DNA of 64,000 nt from Rhizobiales bacterium YIM 77505 (GTDB lineage Bacteria; Pseudomonadota; Alphaproteobacteria; Rhizobiales; Beijerinckiaceae), in contig JQNH01000001.1 in assembly GCA_000745135.1 (NCBI GenBank), forward strand, positions 4,015,501 through 4,079,500, written 5' to 3'. Numbering within the stretch: position 1 is the stretch's first letter; the number at the start of each line of letters is the position of its first letter. Below the pieces are notes generated by a model. It was not told where the DNA came from and did not search any database. It saw only the letters and a list, made by a program, of their open reading frames with translations. Shown piece by piece: positions 2,509 through 18,108 of the stretch. A program made the position numbers and the translations under genes.

Positions 2509-4083
2509 ATGTTCGAAGGTCTTTCCGAGAAACTCTCTGGCATCCTCGACAAGCTCACGCGCCGCGGCGCGCTGACCGAGGAGGATGTCAATGCCGCGCT
2601 GCGCGAGGTGCGGCGCGCGCTCTTGGAGGCGGATGTCGCCTTGGAGGTGGTGCGCTCCTTCACCGACAAGGTGCGCGCGAGGGCTGTCGGGGCCGAGGTC
2701 GTCAAGTCGGTGACGCCCGGCCAGATGGTCGTGAAGATCGTGCACGACCAGCTCGTCACGATGTTGGGTTCGCAGGCCGAGCCCATCGATCTCAACGCCG
2801 TGCCGCCCGTGCCGATCCTGATGGTGGGGCTTCAGGGTTCGGGCAAGACCACGACTACGGCCAAGATCGCCAAGCGCCTCACCGACCGCGACGGCCGCCG
2901 GGTGCTGATGGCGTCGCTTGATACCCGCCGCCCGGCGGCGATGGAACAGCTCGCGGTGCTCGGGCGCCAGGTCGGCGTCGAGACGCTGCCGATCATGCCG
3001 GGCCAGTCCGCGGTCCAGATCGCCCGGCGCGCCCTCGAGGCGGCGCGGCTTGGCGGCTACGACGTGGTGATGCTCGACACGGCGGGCCGCGTCACCGTCG
3101 ACGAGGCTCTCATGGCCGAGGCGGCGGAGGTCAAGGCCGCCACGAACCCGCATGAGGTGCTCCTCGTCGCCGATGCGCTCACCGGCCAGGATGCCGTCAA
3201 CACCGCCCGCGCCTTCGATTCCCGCCTCGGCGTCACCGGCATCGTGCTCACCCGCATGGATGGCGACGCCCGCGGCGGCGCTGCGCTCTCCATGCGCGCC
3301 GTCACCGGCAAGCCCATCAAGCTCATCGGCACGGGCGAGAAGGTCGACGCCCTGGAGGAATTCCACCCGGAGCGGGTCGCCAACCGCATCCTCGGCATGG
3401 GCGACATCGTCTCACTCGTCGAGCGCGCGGCGCAGTCGATTGACGCCGAGCAGGCCCAGCGCATGGCCGAGAGGATGCGCAAGGGCAAGTTCGACCTCAA
3501 TGATCTGCGCGAGCAGCTTGCCCAGATGGAGAAGATCGGCGGCATGGGCGGCATCCTCGGCATGCTCCCCGGCGCTGCCAAGATGAAGGCGCAGATCGAA
3601 CAGGCAGGCCTCAACGACAAGCTGATCCGCCGTCAGCGCGCCATCATCGACTCGATGACCCCGGAGGAGCGCCGCAACCCGGACATCCTGAAAGCCTCGC
3701 GCAAGAAGCGCATCGCGGCAGGCTCCGGCACCAAGGTCGAGGAGGTCAACAAGCTCCTCAAGATGCATCGCCAGATGGCCGACGTCATGAAGATGATGGG
3801 CGGCGGGAAGGCCAAAGGCGTCGCCGGCGCCCTCGGCAACATGCTCGGCCTCGGCGGCGGCATGCCCCAGCCGACTCCGGAAATGATCGCCGAGATGCAG
3901 AAGAAGATGGGCGGACAGCTTCCGCCCATGCCGCCCGGAGTGGGCGGAGGCGGCCTGCCGCCCCTGCCACCGGGCCTCGGCGCGCCCGGCAAGGGTCCGG
4001 CGCTTCCGGGCGGTCTTCCTGGCCTTGGCGGCCCGAAGCTGCCGGGCCTCGGCGGCTTCCCGTTCGGGGGCAAGAAGAAGTGA
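2509..4083 (+). CDS. ffh: Signal recognition particle protein Ffh
   Basis: SRP54-type GTPase that binds signal sequences and 4.5S RNA and delivers ribosomes to FtsY. The N domain covers about residues 1-90. The G domain starts with GLQGSGKTTTTAK at about 107 and has DTRRPAA and DTAGR downstream. The Met-rich M domain lies at about 300-435 (KMKAQIEQAG, RRNPDIL, GSGTKVEEVNKLLK). At 524 residues it is longer than usual (about 450), because of a low-complexity Met/Pro/Gly tail that ends in KKK. Confidence 0.98.
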   Translation: MFEGLSEKLSGILDKLTRRGALTEEDVNAALREVRRALLEADVALEVVRSFTDKVRARAVGAEVVKSVTPGQMVVKIVHDQLVTMLGSQAEPIDLNAVPPVPILMVGLQGSGKTTTTAKIAKRLTDRDGRRVLMASLDTRRPAAMEQLAVLGRQVGVETLPIMPGQSAVQIARRALEAARLGGYDVVMLDTAGRVTVDEALMAEAAEVKAATNPHEVLLVADALTGQDAVNTARAFDSRLGVTGIVLTRMDGDARGGAALSMRAVTGKPIKLIGTGEKVDALEEFHPERVANRILGMGDIVSLVERAAQSIDAEQAQRMAERMRKGKFDLNDLREQLAQMEKIGGMGGILGMLPGAAKMKAQIEQAGLNDKLIRRQRAIIDSMTPEERRNPDILKASRKKRIAAGSGTKVEEVNKLLKMHRQMADVMKMMGGGKAKGVAGALGNMLGLGGGMPQPTPEMIAEMQKKMGGQLPPMPPGVGGGGLPPLPPGLGAPGKGPALPGGLPGLGGPKLPGLGGFPFGGKKK

Positions 4084-4093
4084 CGCGCTCGCG

Positions 4094-4187
4094 CGTCATC
4101 CCGGACGTTGCGAAGCAACGATCCGGGATCGCGTGACGACAGAACGATCCCGGCTCTGCGCGCTTCGCGCTCCGGCCGGGATGACGA
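4094..4187 (+). repeat. Palindromic intergenic repeat, family 1
   Basis: It starts CGTCATCCCGGACG and ends GCCGGGATGACGA, with internal GATCCGGGATCGC and CGATCCCGGC, so the unit can fold on itself. The same blocks recur at 16383-16503 inside the start of soxD, which shows a dispersed family. It fills the gap between ffh and rpsP. Confidence 0.75.
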
Positions 4188-4221: not shown

Positions 4222-4581
4222 ATGTCCTTGAAGATCCGTCTCGCCCGCGGTGGGGCCAAGAAGCGCGCCTATTACCGCATCGTGGTGGCCGACTCGCGCG
4301 CCCCTCGCGATGGGCGCTTCATCGAGAAGGTCGGCACCTACGACCCGCTCAAGAAGAAGGACGACCCGACCCGGGTCACGCTCGAGATCGAGAAGATCCA
4401 GGCTTGGCTCAAGAAGGGCGCCCAGCCGACGGACCGCGTCCTGCGCTTCCTCGATGCCGCCGGGCTCATGAAGCGTCCGCCGCGCAACAACCCGAAGAAG
4501 GGCGAGCCGGGCAAGAAGGCGCAGGAGCGTGCGGCGGCCCGCGCCGCAGCCGCTGGCCAAGGCGAGGGCGCGCCGGCGTAA
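4222..4581 (+). CDS. rpsP: 30S ribosomal protein S16
   Basis: Begins [20 protein letters not shown], the hallmark of S16, followed by [20 protein letters not shown]. It has 119 residues including an Ala/Arg/Lys-rich alphaproteobacterial tail. The ribosome site AAAGGAG lies about 8 bases before the ATG. It is the first gene of the rpsP-rimM-GNAT-trmD group. Confidence 0.98.
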
Positions 4582-15088: not shown

Positions 15089-16363
15089 ATGGCAGGGGGA
15101 CAGGGGCAGGGCCACCCTTCGCGACGCATGTTCTTGCGCGCCGGGCTCTCGACCGGAACCGCGATCATCGGGGCCGGCGGCGCGTGGGCGGCGGGCGATC
15201 CTGCGAACCAGCCGCCGAATGTTCCTGACTGGTCGCGATATCTGGGCGACGGGGTTGCCGTTCGAGCCTATGGGAAGCCGTCGAAGCACGAGGCTCACGT
15301 GGTGCGTCGGGACGTGGAATGGCTCACCGCCTCGCGCGAGAGCTCGGTGAGCTTCACGCCCCTGCACGAGCTCGATGGCATCATCACCCCGAACGGCCTG
15401 TGCTTTGAGCGCCACCACGCCGGCATCGCCGAGATCGACCCGGCCGACTATCGCCTCATCCTGCACGGACTCGTCGACAAGCCGCTCATCTTCACCCTCG
15501 ACGACCTCAAGCGCTTCCCGCGGGTCAACCGCGCTTATTTTTGCGAATGCGCCGCCAATTCCGGCATGGAGTGGCGGGGCGCGCAGCTCAATGGCTGCCA
15601 GTACACGCATGGCATGGTCCATTGCGTGATGTACACGGGCGTTCCCCTCAAACTCCTCCTGCAAGAGGCCGGCCTCAAGGCGAACGCCAAGTGGCTGCTG
15701 CTCGAAGGCGCTGATGCGGCTGCCATGACGCGCTCGCTGCCCCTGCAGAAAGCCCTCGACGACGCGCTCGTGGCCTACCGCATGAATGGCGAGATGCTGC
15801 GGCCGGAGAACGGCTATCCCGCCCGCATCGTGCTCCCCGGCTGGGAGGCGAACATGTGGGTCAAGTGGCTGCGCCGCATCGAGGTCGGCGACGAGCCCTG
15901 GCATCACCGCGAGGAAACCTCGAAGTACACCGACCTCCTGGCGAACGGAAAGGCGCGGCGCTTCACCTTCGTGATGGACGCGAAGTCCGTGATCACCAGC
16001 CCGAGCCCGCAGGCGCCCCTCAACCACAAGAAAGGCTTCACCGTGCTCTCCGGCCTCGCCTGGTCGGGGCGCGGCAAGATCCAGCGCGTCGACGTGTCCC
16101 TCGACGGTGGGCGCAATTGGCGCACCGCCCGTCTCGACGGGCCGGTGTGGGACAAGGCCCTGACCCGCTTCTACTACGAGTTCGACTGGGACGGCCGGGA
16201 ACTGCTCCTGCAATCGCGTGCCATGGACGAGACCGGCTACGTGCAGCCGACCAAGGCCGAGCTGCGCAAGGTGCGAGGCGTGAACTCGATCTACCACAAC
16301 AACGGCATCCAGACCTGGCACGTGAAGGCGAACGGGGAGGTCGAGAATGTCGAGGTGGCGTGA
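15089..16363 (+). CDS. soxC: SoxC-type sulfite/sulfane dehydrogenase, molybdopterin subunit
   Basis: Periplasmic molybdenum enzyme of the sulfite oxidase family. A Tat signal is visible (SRRMFLRAG at the N-terminus). LCFERHHAGIAEIDP, FCECAANSGMEWRG (Cys154 as probable Mo ligand), PGWEANMWVKWLRRI and KVRGVNSIYHNNGIQTW match SoxC along the whole length. 424 residues from ATG 15089, chosen for GGAGG upstream. The downstream cytochrome overlaps its end, giving a SoxCD pair. No soxXYZAB is nearby, so sulfite itself is a likely substrate. Confidence 0.9.
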   Translation: MAGGQGQGHPSRRMFLRAGLSTGTAIIGAGGAWAAGDPANQPPNVPDWSRYLGDGVAVRAYGKPSKHEAHVVRRDVEWLTASRESSVSFTPLHELDGIITPNGLCFERHHAGIAEIDPADYRLILHGLVDKPLIFTLDDLKRFPRVNRAYFCECAANSGMEWRGAQLNGCQYTHGMVHCVMYTGVPLKLLLQEAGLKANAKWLLLEGADAAAMTRSLPLQKALDDALVAYRMNGEMLRPENGYPARIVLPGWEANMWVKWLRRIEVGDEPWHHREETSKYTDLLANGKARRFTFVMDAKSVITSPSPQAPLNHKKGFTVLSGLAWSGRGKIQRVDVSLDGGRNWRTARLDGPVWDKALTRFYYEFDWDGRELLLQSRAMDETGYVQPTKAELRKVRGVNSIYHNNGIQTWHVKANGEVENVEVA

Positions 16364-17138
16364 GCGCGTGATCGCACCTTTCCGTCATCCCCGACGCGCG
16401 GATGCGCCGCGCGCTGCGCTTGAGATCCGGGATCGCAAGCCGAACGGGTCCCTCCTTGGAAGCGCGATCCCGGCCCTTCGCTTCGCTGCGGCCGGGATGA
16501 CGATGTGGCTCGCGACGCTTGCTGGGGCGCAGGCGGACGCCTCCGGCAAGCGCTTCAACATCGGGCGCGAGGCCATGGCGGAGGAGATCGCCGGCTGGGA
16601 CATCGACGTGCGGCCCGACGGGCGGGGGCTGCCGGTCGGCAAGGGCACGGTGAAGGAGGGCGAGAGCCTCTATATCGAGCGCTGCGCCGCCTGCCACGGG
16701 GAGTTCGGGGAGAGCGCCGGGCGCTGGCCGATCCTCGCCGGGGGCGAGGGCACGCTCGCAAGCCACGACCCGGTGAAGTCGATCGGCTCCTATTGGCCCT
16801 ACGCGTCGACGGTGCTCGATTATATCCGGCGCGCCATGCCCTTCGGCAACGCCCAGTCGCTCACCAACGACGAACTCTACGCGGTCACCGCCTACGTCCT
16901 CTATCTCAACGACGCCATCAAGGACGAGGCCTTCGAGCTGAGCGACAAGAACTTCCTCTCGGTCAAGCTGCCGAACGAGGCGAACTTCTTCGACGACGAC
17001 CGCGAGACGTCGGAAAAGCATTTCTGGACCAAGGAGCCGTGCATGGCGAACTGTGCCGCCGGCGAAGCGCGCATCGTCGGTCGCGCGCGGGCGCTCGACG
17101 TCACGCCGGAAGAGGGCAAGGCGCCCAAGGTCGAGTAG
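16347..17138 (+). CDS. soxD: SoxD-type cytochrome c subunit with repeat inserted in leader
   Basis: Electron-accepting partner of SoxC. One haem motif CAACH is at residues 113-117, with GRWPILAGGEGTLASHDPVKSIGSYWPY and YVLYLNDAI, as in SoxD; EPCMANCAAG lies near the C-terminus. ATG 16347 overlaps soxC by 17 bp and has GGGGAGG 6 bases upstream. From residue 13 to about 52 the frame runs through a family 1 repeat, and the hydrophobic leader (LRFAAAGMTMWLATLAGAQA) is partly repeat-encoded. ATG 16497 is in frame but would leave too short a signal peptide. Confidence 0.87.
   Translation: MSRWRERVIAPFRHPRRADAPRAALEIRDRKPNGSLLGSAIPALRFAAAGMTMWLATLAGAQADASGKRFNIGREAMAEEIAGWDIDVRPDGRGLPVGKGTVKEGESLYIERCAACHGEFGESAGRWPILAGGEGTLASHDPVKSIGSYWPYASTVLDYIRRAMPFGNAQSLTNDELYAVTAYVLYLNDAIKDEAFELSDKNFLSVKLPNEANFFDDDRETSEKHFWTKEPCMANCAAGEARIVGRARALDVTPEEGKAPKVE
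16383..16503 (+). repeat. Palindromic repeat, family 1, inside soxD leader
   Basis: Shares CGTCATCCC, GATCCGGGATCGC, CGATCCCGGC and GGCCGGGATGACGA with the copy at 4094-4187. The outer arms are inverted. It is open in the soxD frame. Confidence 0.75.
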
Positions 17139-17166: not shown

Positions 17167-18108
17167 ATGACCGCGAAGGCGAACGGCCTCTCCTGCTCGC
17201 GACGCTCTGTCGTGACGGGGCTCGCCGGGACAGCCGCCGCGCTCGCGATGCCAAGCGTGCCGGGGGCCGCCGCTTCCGCCATCCGAATCGGCGCGGCGGA
17301 GATAAGGGTGGTGAGCGATGGCCACCTCGTGCTGCCGCGCAGCCTCGTGATCCTGGAAAAGCCGGAGGAGGTCGATCGCTTCTTCCACGAGAGCGGCGCG
17401 GAGCCGTCGGCTGCCCTGCTGTCCTCGCCCACGCATCCGACCCTCATCCGCGTGGGCGGAGAGCTGATCCTGATCGACGCGGGCGCGGGCCCCCACTTCC
17501 AGGCGACCGCGGGCAGGCTGTCCGAGAACCTTGGGGCGATGGGCGTCGATCCGGCGGGGGTCACCAAGGTGATCTTCACCCATGCCCACGCCGACCATCT
17601 CTGGGGCGTGCTCGACGAGTTCGACGAGCTCCGCTTTCCGAAGGCGAGCTACGTCATCTCGGCTGCCGAATGGGACTTCTGGACGGAGCCCGACACGCCA
17701 TCGCGCGTCCCCGATGTCCTCAAAGGCATGGCCCTCGGCTCCGCCCGCATCCTCAAGCGGCTCGAGGACCGCATCGAGCGGCGCAGGCCCGGCGAGGCGA
17801 TCGGGCCCGGGCTGTCCTTCATCGCCACCGCCGGCCATACGCCCGGGCACGCCGCCGTGCTTGTGGAGAATGGGAGCGAGCAGCTCATCGTCGGCGGTGA
17901 CGTCCTCTCGCATCCTCTCATCGCGTTCGGCCGCCCCGATTGGCAGTCCGGGACCGATTACGACCGCGAGGCCGCAGCGCTGACGCGCAAGGCGCTGCTG
18001 GACCGCCTCGCGACGGAGCGCAGCCTCCTCATCGGCTATCACCTTCCCTGGCCGGCGGCGGGCAGGGTCGAGCGCGCCGGGCCGGCCTACCGCTTCGTCC
18101 CGGTCTGA
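17167..18108 (+). CDS. Exported metallo-beta-lactamase-fold hydrolase, sox-associated
   Basis: 313 residues from ATG 17167, with GAGGGAGG upstream. The N-terminus has a twin-arginine-like leader (CSRRSVVTGLAGTAAALAMP). The metal motif THAHADH is at about 138-144 (His139, His141, Asp143, His144), followed by TAGHTPGHA, GGDVL and a late GYHLP, so all ligands of a di-metal site are present. It follows soxD by 28 bp and is probably co-transcribed; MBL-fold proteins (SoxH and relatives) recur in sox loci, but their substrate is not settled. Confidence 0.82.
   Translation: MTAKANGLSCSRRSVVTGLAGTAAALAMPSVPGAAASAIRIGAAEIRVVSDGHLVLPRSLVILEKPEEVDRFFHESGAEPSAALLSSPTHPTLIRVGGELILIDAGAGPHFQATAGRLSENLGAMGVDPAGVTKVIFTHAHADHLWGVLDEFDELRFPKASYVISAAEWDFWTEPDTPSRVPDVLKGMALGSARILKRLEDRIERRRPGEAIGPGLSFIATAGHTPGHAAVLVENGSEQLIVGGDVLSHPLIAFGRPDWQSGTDYDREAAALTRKALLDRLATERSLLIGYHLPWPAAGRVERAGPAYRFVPV

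Follow-up and report, generated by a model that had tools for sequence, protein, structure and literature searches.

A REP/RPE-like palindromic repeat stands directly behind soxC in the window, a stretch of 64,000 nucleotides from Rhizobiales bacterium YIM 77505. Sequence comparison makes it likely that this repeat is translated from the overlapping soxD start codon as part of the SoxD leader, with its frame kept by selection and the leader removed afterwards. The soxC–soxD junction has received at least five kinds of repeat, in about 12–13 events.

The element would be a non-autonomous palindrome of the REP/RPE type that settles shortly past the stop codons of genes. Since soxD begins 17 nt before the end of soxC, there is no free spacer behind soxC, and because of this overlap a repeat at this site would be coding. 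Arrivals would fall in about codons 6–50 of SoxD, which form the n-region of the signal peptide. Ribosomes would initiate at the overlapping ATG and read through the repeat, giving a leader of about 63 residues as against about 20–30. The n-region would tolerate tens of arbitrary residues because they are discarded; signal peptidase should remove the leader, so that the mature cytochrome would be unchanged. Selection would purge out-of-frame cases or force a new start, and the identity of the inserted residues would matter little. The window strain seems to lack part of the native hydrophobic core, for which residues of the repeat would stand in, forming a weak core.

The soxC–soxD overlap

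The identity of soxC (15089–16363, forward strand) as the sulfite dehydrogenase subunit of the Sox system is unambiguous, as its product matches TIGR04555 with 654 bits (cut-off 420) together with PF00174 and PF03404. Its start at ATG 15089 is our reading of the sequence, and its stop is TGA 16361–16363. The open reading frame of soxD (16347–17138, forward strand; 263 amino acids) specifies a mono-haem cytochrome c with matches to PF13442 (residues 101–184) and PF00034 and a single CAACH haem site (codons 16683–16697). The protein matched none of the NCBIfam SoxD models and is named SoxD because its gene adjoins soxC; the assignment to SoxCD combines the SoxC model match with the adjacent cytochrome c, and SoxY genes are found elsewhere in the genome. 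Judged from its sequence, the SoxD core is intact and under purifying selection, with dN 0.126 and dS 0.73 against the congener and dN/dS ratios of 0.17 against L016 and 0.09 against L010, which average over the time before and after the insertion.

The ribosome site of soxD, GGGGAGG, lies within soxC (16334–16340, forward strand). The duplex energy is −11.5 kcal/mol at ATG 16347, compared with −1.7 at 16497 and −4.1 at 16503. These energies agree with a start at 16347, which the sequence-only reading had proposed, noting the ribosome site and the overlap. Shine-Dalgarno strength was dropped as independent proof of this start, since its bases double as soxC codons; for the same reason the conservation of the ribosome site and the ATG is partly that of soxC itself. 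The congener G001, with its out-of-frame repeat, also retains both.

SoxD relatives comprised the best 80 of 315 in a contig search and both genomes of the genus, and further 106 of 397 in the order, 45 of 199 in the family and 170 of 391 in the family of G314. DNA was taken for part of them, at most 30 loci per search plus 140 stretches. This resulted in 301 loci with soxC and a SoxD core; L272 was left out, its stretch containing no soxC. The overlap was present in 296 loci, which were reduced to 243 distinct junctions by merging identical ones, and the five loci without it (L137–L141, 44–53% identity) were left out. A 17-nt overlap carrying the soxD start ATG, located at 16347–16363 on the forward strand in the window, is common to all 243 distinct junctions, and the Asn codon that carries this ATG is AAT in 243 of 243, as against 628 of 2164 other Asn codons among the last 200 soxC codons; both counts hold partly by construction because loci were recognised via AATGT near the soxC stop, a criterion by which five of the 301 loci, all distant paralogs, were lost. 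In the insert-bearing loci the junction Asn is AAT in 16 of 16, compared with 40 of 143 of the other Asn codons at the ends of these soxC genes. Reading from the overlapping ATG is in phase with the SoxD core in 242 of the 243 junctions, for intervening lengths of 43 to 589 nt. The start assigned earlier at 16347 is thus conserved among relatives, and a later start with another leader, which would speak against it, is seen only in the congener.

In eleven loci (L118, L144, L147, L151, L154, L165, L172, L175–L177 and L186) the overlapping start opens an extra cytochrome c domain. This domain precedes the usual core of these di-haem SoxD proteins, so the junction also marks the gain or loss of a domain. 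The eleven were left out of the hydropathy comparison (231 loci, also without the out-of-frame L016) and of the tree (232 loci, L016 kept).

A 121-nt palindromic element behind soxC

The CGTC-tagged inverted-repeat element at 16382–16502 (forward strand) corresponds to SoxD residues ~12–52 and starts 18 nt 3′ of the soxC stop. Its length is exactly 121 nt and it is in frame in the leader, as had been noted from the letters alone. The outer pair of arms consists of CCGTCATCC, placed at 16382, and GGGATGACG, whose end is at 16502; the inner pair is CCGGGATCGC/GCGATCCCGG. Parts of the element recur in the genome, with 11 matches when itself is included. In the whole genome (4.19 Mb) there are 12 occurrences of the 13-nt core of the element, GGCCGGGATGACG, and 0 of the reversed control, by which a chance repeat was rejected; at least two of the 12 sites (L315 and L321) resemble chance matches in coding sequence. 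The left end of the element is recognisable at six of the 12 sites, that behind soxC included. In all six recognised copies a neighbouring gene on one or both sides has its 3′ end 6–19 nt away, as taken from a simple GC3-based reading of the ORFs.

A second copy of the family, at 4094–4187 on the forward strand, lies 10 nt past the stop of a gene ending at 4083, which we take from its sequence to be the signal recognition particle GTPase. This other full copy in the window precedes an ORF starting at 4222 and is an intergenic counterpart of the soxD insert.

Folded as RNA, the element was moderately more stable than its shuffles (z −2.23; 5 of 200 shuffles equally good), and the DNA fold of 16378–16503 gave z −1.92, with 5 of 200 shuffles equally good. 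A known RNA family was rejected, as Rfam gave 0 matches at the repeat site. A resident Y1 transposase was rejected as the mover in the window's genome (G000): a search for PF01797 (Y1/tyrosine transposase) at E ≤ 0.001 found nothing in G000 or in the congener G001, and the model had a match in 5 of the 14 genomes searched, in three of them above the cut-off.

Recurrent insertions at one junction

In 16 distinct junctions an insert lies between the stop of soxC and the hydrophobic core. These inserts were first chosen by eye from unusual leaders, which was not blind, and inverted repeats were then looked for in them. Unrelated elements occupy this site in the window and in its congener G001 (L016, identical to L090). 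The other inserts encode peptides of the type RESGNP..RFRGDE or similar (L043, L051, L072 and L247), RHPEV.. (L066 and L252), LTPxLSP..GRG (L064 and L080), xPSKDEL..FDxLR (L077/L078) and STRLE..PSFET..PQDEV (L275/L276). The insert of L217 resembles a rearranged copy of the last type, and that of L204 is doubtful and decayed. The first clear palindromic arm lies 6–42 nt from the soxC stop in 14 junctions, namely the window (18 nt) and 13 others, and 75 nt from it in L064; in L204 such an arm was looked for and none was seen. We inspected 31 further junctions with 150–400 nt from soxC to the core but did not count them. In 30 of these the hydrophobic core is close to the start, most of the added length being linker behind it, and the remaining one, L045, has a long leader that is not clearly repeat-like.

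Four insert types besides that of the window were searched for in host genomes. Among the matches listed, the L043 type has 65–72 in each of five genomes, the L276 type 69–77 in G587, G627, G854 and G856, with 38 in G598 but 2 in G001, and the L064 type 120 in G608, 15 in G761 and, for the hosts of L077 and of L078, 1 and 0; the L016 insert has 19 in G001 and 0 in G000. These match counts exceed the number of places because palindromes match on both strands. On the tree of 232 loci, parsimony required 13 changes between presence and absence of an insert, or 14 when counted by family. The soxCD junction as a hot spot for insertion was dropped, being the sole junction sampled, and the insert rate cannot be taken as an unbiased estimate, because some genera were chosen partly for looking repeat-rich.

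Eleven of the 12 clear insertion events are in frame (P = 4.7e-5 if random), or 12 of 13 with L204 (P = 1.7e-5). Counting L043, L051/L072 and L247 as a single old insertion that was later lost in places leaves 9 of 10 in frame (P = 3.6e-4). All these P values assume a chance of one in three for an in-frame insertion. A single case such as that of the window would be in frame one time in three by chance alone, and an assembly error might give the same picture. We consider either explanation very improbable, since the arrangement recurs in other genomes with different repeats, and the other copies of the repeat in the genome stand at distinct loci, each with flanks of its own.

Probable translation through the repeats

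All 15 in-frame insert loci are free of stop codons in the frame used. Both other frames contain stops in 10 of these loci, which is not so in the other five. In L276, L217 and L072, the stretch from the repeat to the hydrophobic core lacks a start codon, and each repeat has one start codon inside it; therefore a substantial part of the repeat, at a minimum, would be translated. L275 and L276 seem, from their sequences, to share one insertion, and both inserts remain open at a soxC dS of 0.68. The dN/dS of insert plus leader was 0.64, 0.93, 0.67, 0.91 and 0.51 in five pairs, compared with 0.17 and 0.09 for the core of the window's SoxD; the insert values are indicative only, as the palindromic alignments are short and include some native leader, and the pairs L051/L072, L043/L051 and L043/L247 possibly represent separate insertions. 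Stop-free frames together with high dN/dS of the inserts indicate that the frame has been retained and the residues are loosely held; such rather free variation is expected for a disposable leader.

The one exception is the congener G001. With its insert out of frame, the only possible soxD starts are a GTG or ATG inside the repeat or a GTG just behind it; among these are the ATG of CTCAGCATGAGG, which belongs to the end of the repeat itself, and a GTG four codons further on. As judged from its sequence, G001 shows that the overlapping soxD start can be lost. Such a case would suit a reading in which the repeat is an untranslated intergenic mRNA hairpin and soxD of the window starts at 16497 or 16503, at a codon supplied by the end of the repeat or its flank. 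Two in-frame ATGs (codons 51 and 53; 16497–16505, forward strand) do stand exactly at the 3′ end of the repeat, the hairpin beats its shuffles, and many REPs at N-termini have been argued to be possibly extragenic on this same ground (PMC3733652). However, an untranslated repeat predicts random phase, which the excess of in-frame events contradicts, both ATGs have weak ribosome sites, and the three loci that have no start behind the repeat and ahead of the core also speak against it. Moreover, the leaders from 16497 and 16503 would have no K/R before their best hydrophobic window, and their 12-residue Kyte-Doolittle values of 0.88 and 0.64 lie outside those of all 216 insert-free relatives. 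We therefore regard an untranslated repeat in the window as unlikely. Translation solely from behind the repeat was rejected as a general rule by phase, leader hydropathy and the positions of start codons.

The SoxD leader of the window strain

With translation from 16347 through the repeat, ten K/R precede the best hydrophobic window of the leader. The probable hydrophobic core, by hydropathy, is F46–A61 (16482–16529, forward strand), of which F46–T52 is encoded by the repeat and M53–A61 is native. Cleavage presumably follows A63 (AQA), a site read by eye from the AxA rule. The earlier suggestion that the core is partly repeat DNA holds for F46–T52, but it needs correction in that the leader is only weakly hydrophobic. 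The best 12-residue Kyte-Doolittle window, L36–A47, lies wholly in the repeat and reaches 1.40 (mean of F46–A61, 1.37), whereas the minimum in the 216 relatives without insert is 1.80 and the median 2.47. The hydrophobic stretch is the weakest of 231 at Kyte-Doolittle widths 8, 10, 12 and 15 and the third lowest at width 18; on the Eisenberg scale its rank varies with width between 2nd and 11th lowest. Without the element the native part of the leader is 75 nt, compared with 94 nt in the nearest uninserted relative (L010). This difference suggests that the insertion probably removed some of the native core and that residues of the repeat replace part of it.

Because the hydrophobic stretch is the weakest at four of the five Kyte-Doolittle widths, export of SoxD in the window strain may be impaired. 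In the stronger form of this idea, the insertion damaged the leader, and SoxD would be made but poorly exported, in an early stage of decay, which is compatible with read-through of the repeat. The shortened native part would fit such damage as well. On the other hand, the core of the protein is under purifying selection as described above, soxC is intact and SoxY genes are present in the genome, and damage of this kind appears doubtful to us.

Comparison with known repeats

RPEs are palindromes of 105–146 bp that are found in frame within conserved protein genes of Rickettsia, and translation was shown for gmk, as described in PMC2229807. By that description the soxD repeat is alike, being a genome-repeated palindrome of 121 nt, in an alphaproteobacterium and in frame in a conserved gene. 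It differs from RPEs as described there in that it is confined to a presumably cleaved signal peptide and occurs in other bacteria, the Hyphomicrobiales; its coding state follows from the overlap with the upstream gene; and several unrelated families occupy the one site. The resemblance to Rickettsia pointed out by the sequence-only reading is supported, but the case is neither unique nor specific to this element, since other repeats lie at the same junction. Overall, that earlier interpretation is partly supported; it had used neither the gene overlap as an explanation nor the weakness of the hydrophobic stretch.

CGTC REPs have CGTC ends and paired units, lie near gene 3′ ends and are common in alphaproteobacteria (PMC3733652). 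Families 1–4 have a terminal CGTC (or TGTC/CCTC), a stem of 8–9 bp with A–T/T–A as its first two pairs and a loop of 4–5 nt; they are not tied to tyrosine transposase genes, and a CCA tail fits most, but not all, of them (PMC3733652). The soxD element shares the paired units, the CGTC (16383–16386) and GACG (16499–16502), the position of its copies near gene 3′ ends and the lack of a tie to a tyrosine transposase (PF01797 in G000 and G001, above), and its right unit ATCCCGGCC/GGCCGGGAT has the stem with A–T/T–A first pairs. Unlike those families, however, it has a right-unit loop of 14 nt rather than 4–5, and CGC instead of CCA after the right-unit stem. As it fails in loop and tail, we call it CGTC-like and not a member. 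The inserts of L043, L051, L072 and L247 have an 8-bp stem (with one G–T pair in L072), a 4-nt loop (GAAA in L043, L072 and L247, GCAA in L051) and CCA; an exact CGTC ahead of that stem was not found in these four.

REPs have been recorded at the N-termini of ORFs, and for many of them translation was left open, as they may be extragenic, although some RPE-1-bearing N-termini are expressed in R. conorii (PMC3733652). In Yersinia, an RU-2 element in YPO1552 forms part of a signal peptide (PMC2759123). That case is one insertion in a putative exported protein, whereas in SoxD, a conserved cytochrome, insertions are recurrent and frame statistics could be drawn from them. In the literature that we searched, we found no case of one conserved overlap repeatedly invaded by unrelated repeats with the frame kept.

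A single conserved overlap that different repeats have entered about a dozen times is a natural test of the translation of N-terminal repeats, and the phase test addresses, for one junction, the question left open in PMC3733652. The overlap also points to a simple origin of signal peptides that are long and variable, and of start codons that have shifted, and it is a warning for gene callers that pick starts by length or homology. More tentatively, and with somewhat less than even confidence, we propose that exported leaders of overlapping genes are general landing pads in alphaproteobacteria, where repeats rebuild signal peptides and starts, and that the repeat in the window is a working part of the SoxD core. 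Insertions that would break most other coding sequences would survive in leaders because the product is cut off. If this is true, palindromes would repeatedly lengthen, rebuild or replace signal peptides together with their start codons.

Other genes near soxC and soxD

The best SoxY match of G000 lies at contig positions 4006627–4006956, about 24 kb upstream of soxC and outside the window. In G001, G721, G605, G880 and G761, a SoxY is located about 4–5 kb from soxD, and the sox cluster of G000 seems spread out. Directly 3′ of soxD, at 17167–18108, is a gene for a protein of the metallo-beta-lactamase fold with a leader that looks Tat-like by eye. It is closest to AidB-type lactonases, with 144 bits, far under the model cut-off of 360.
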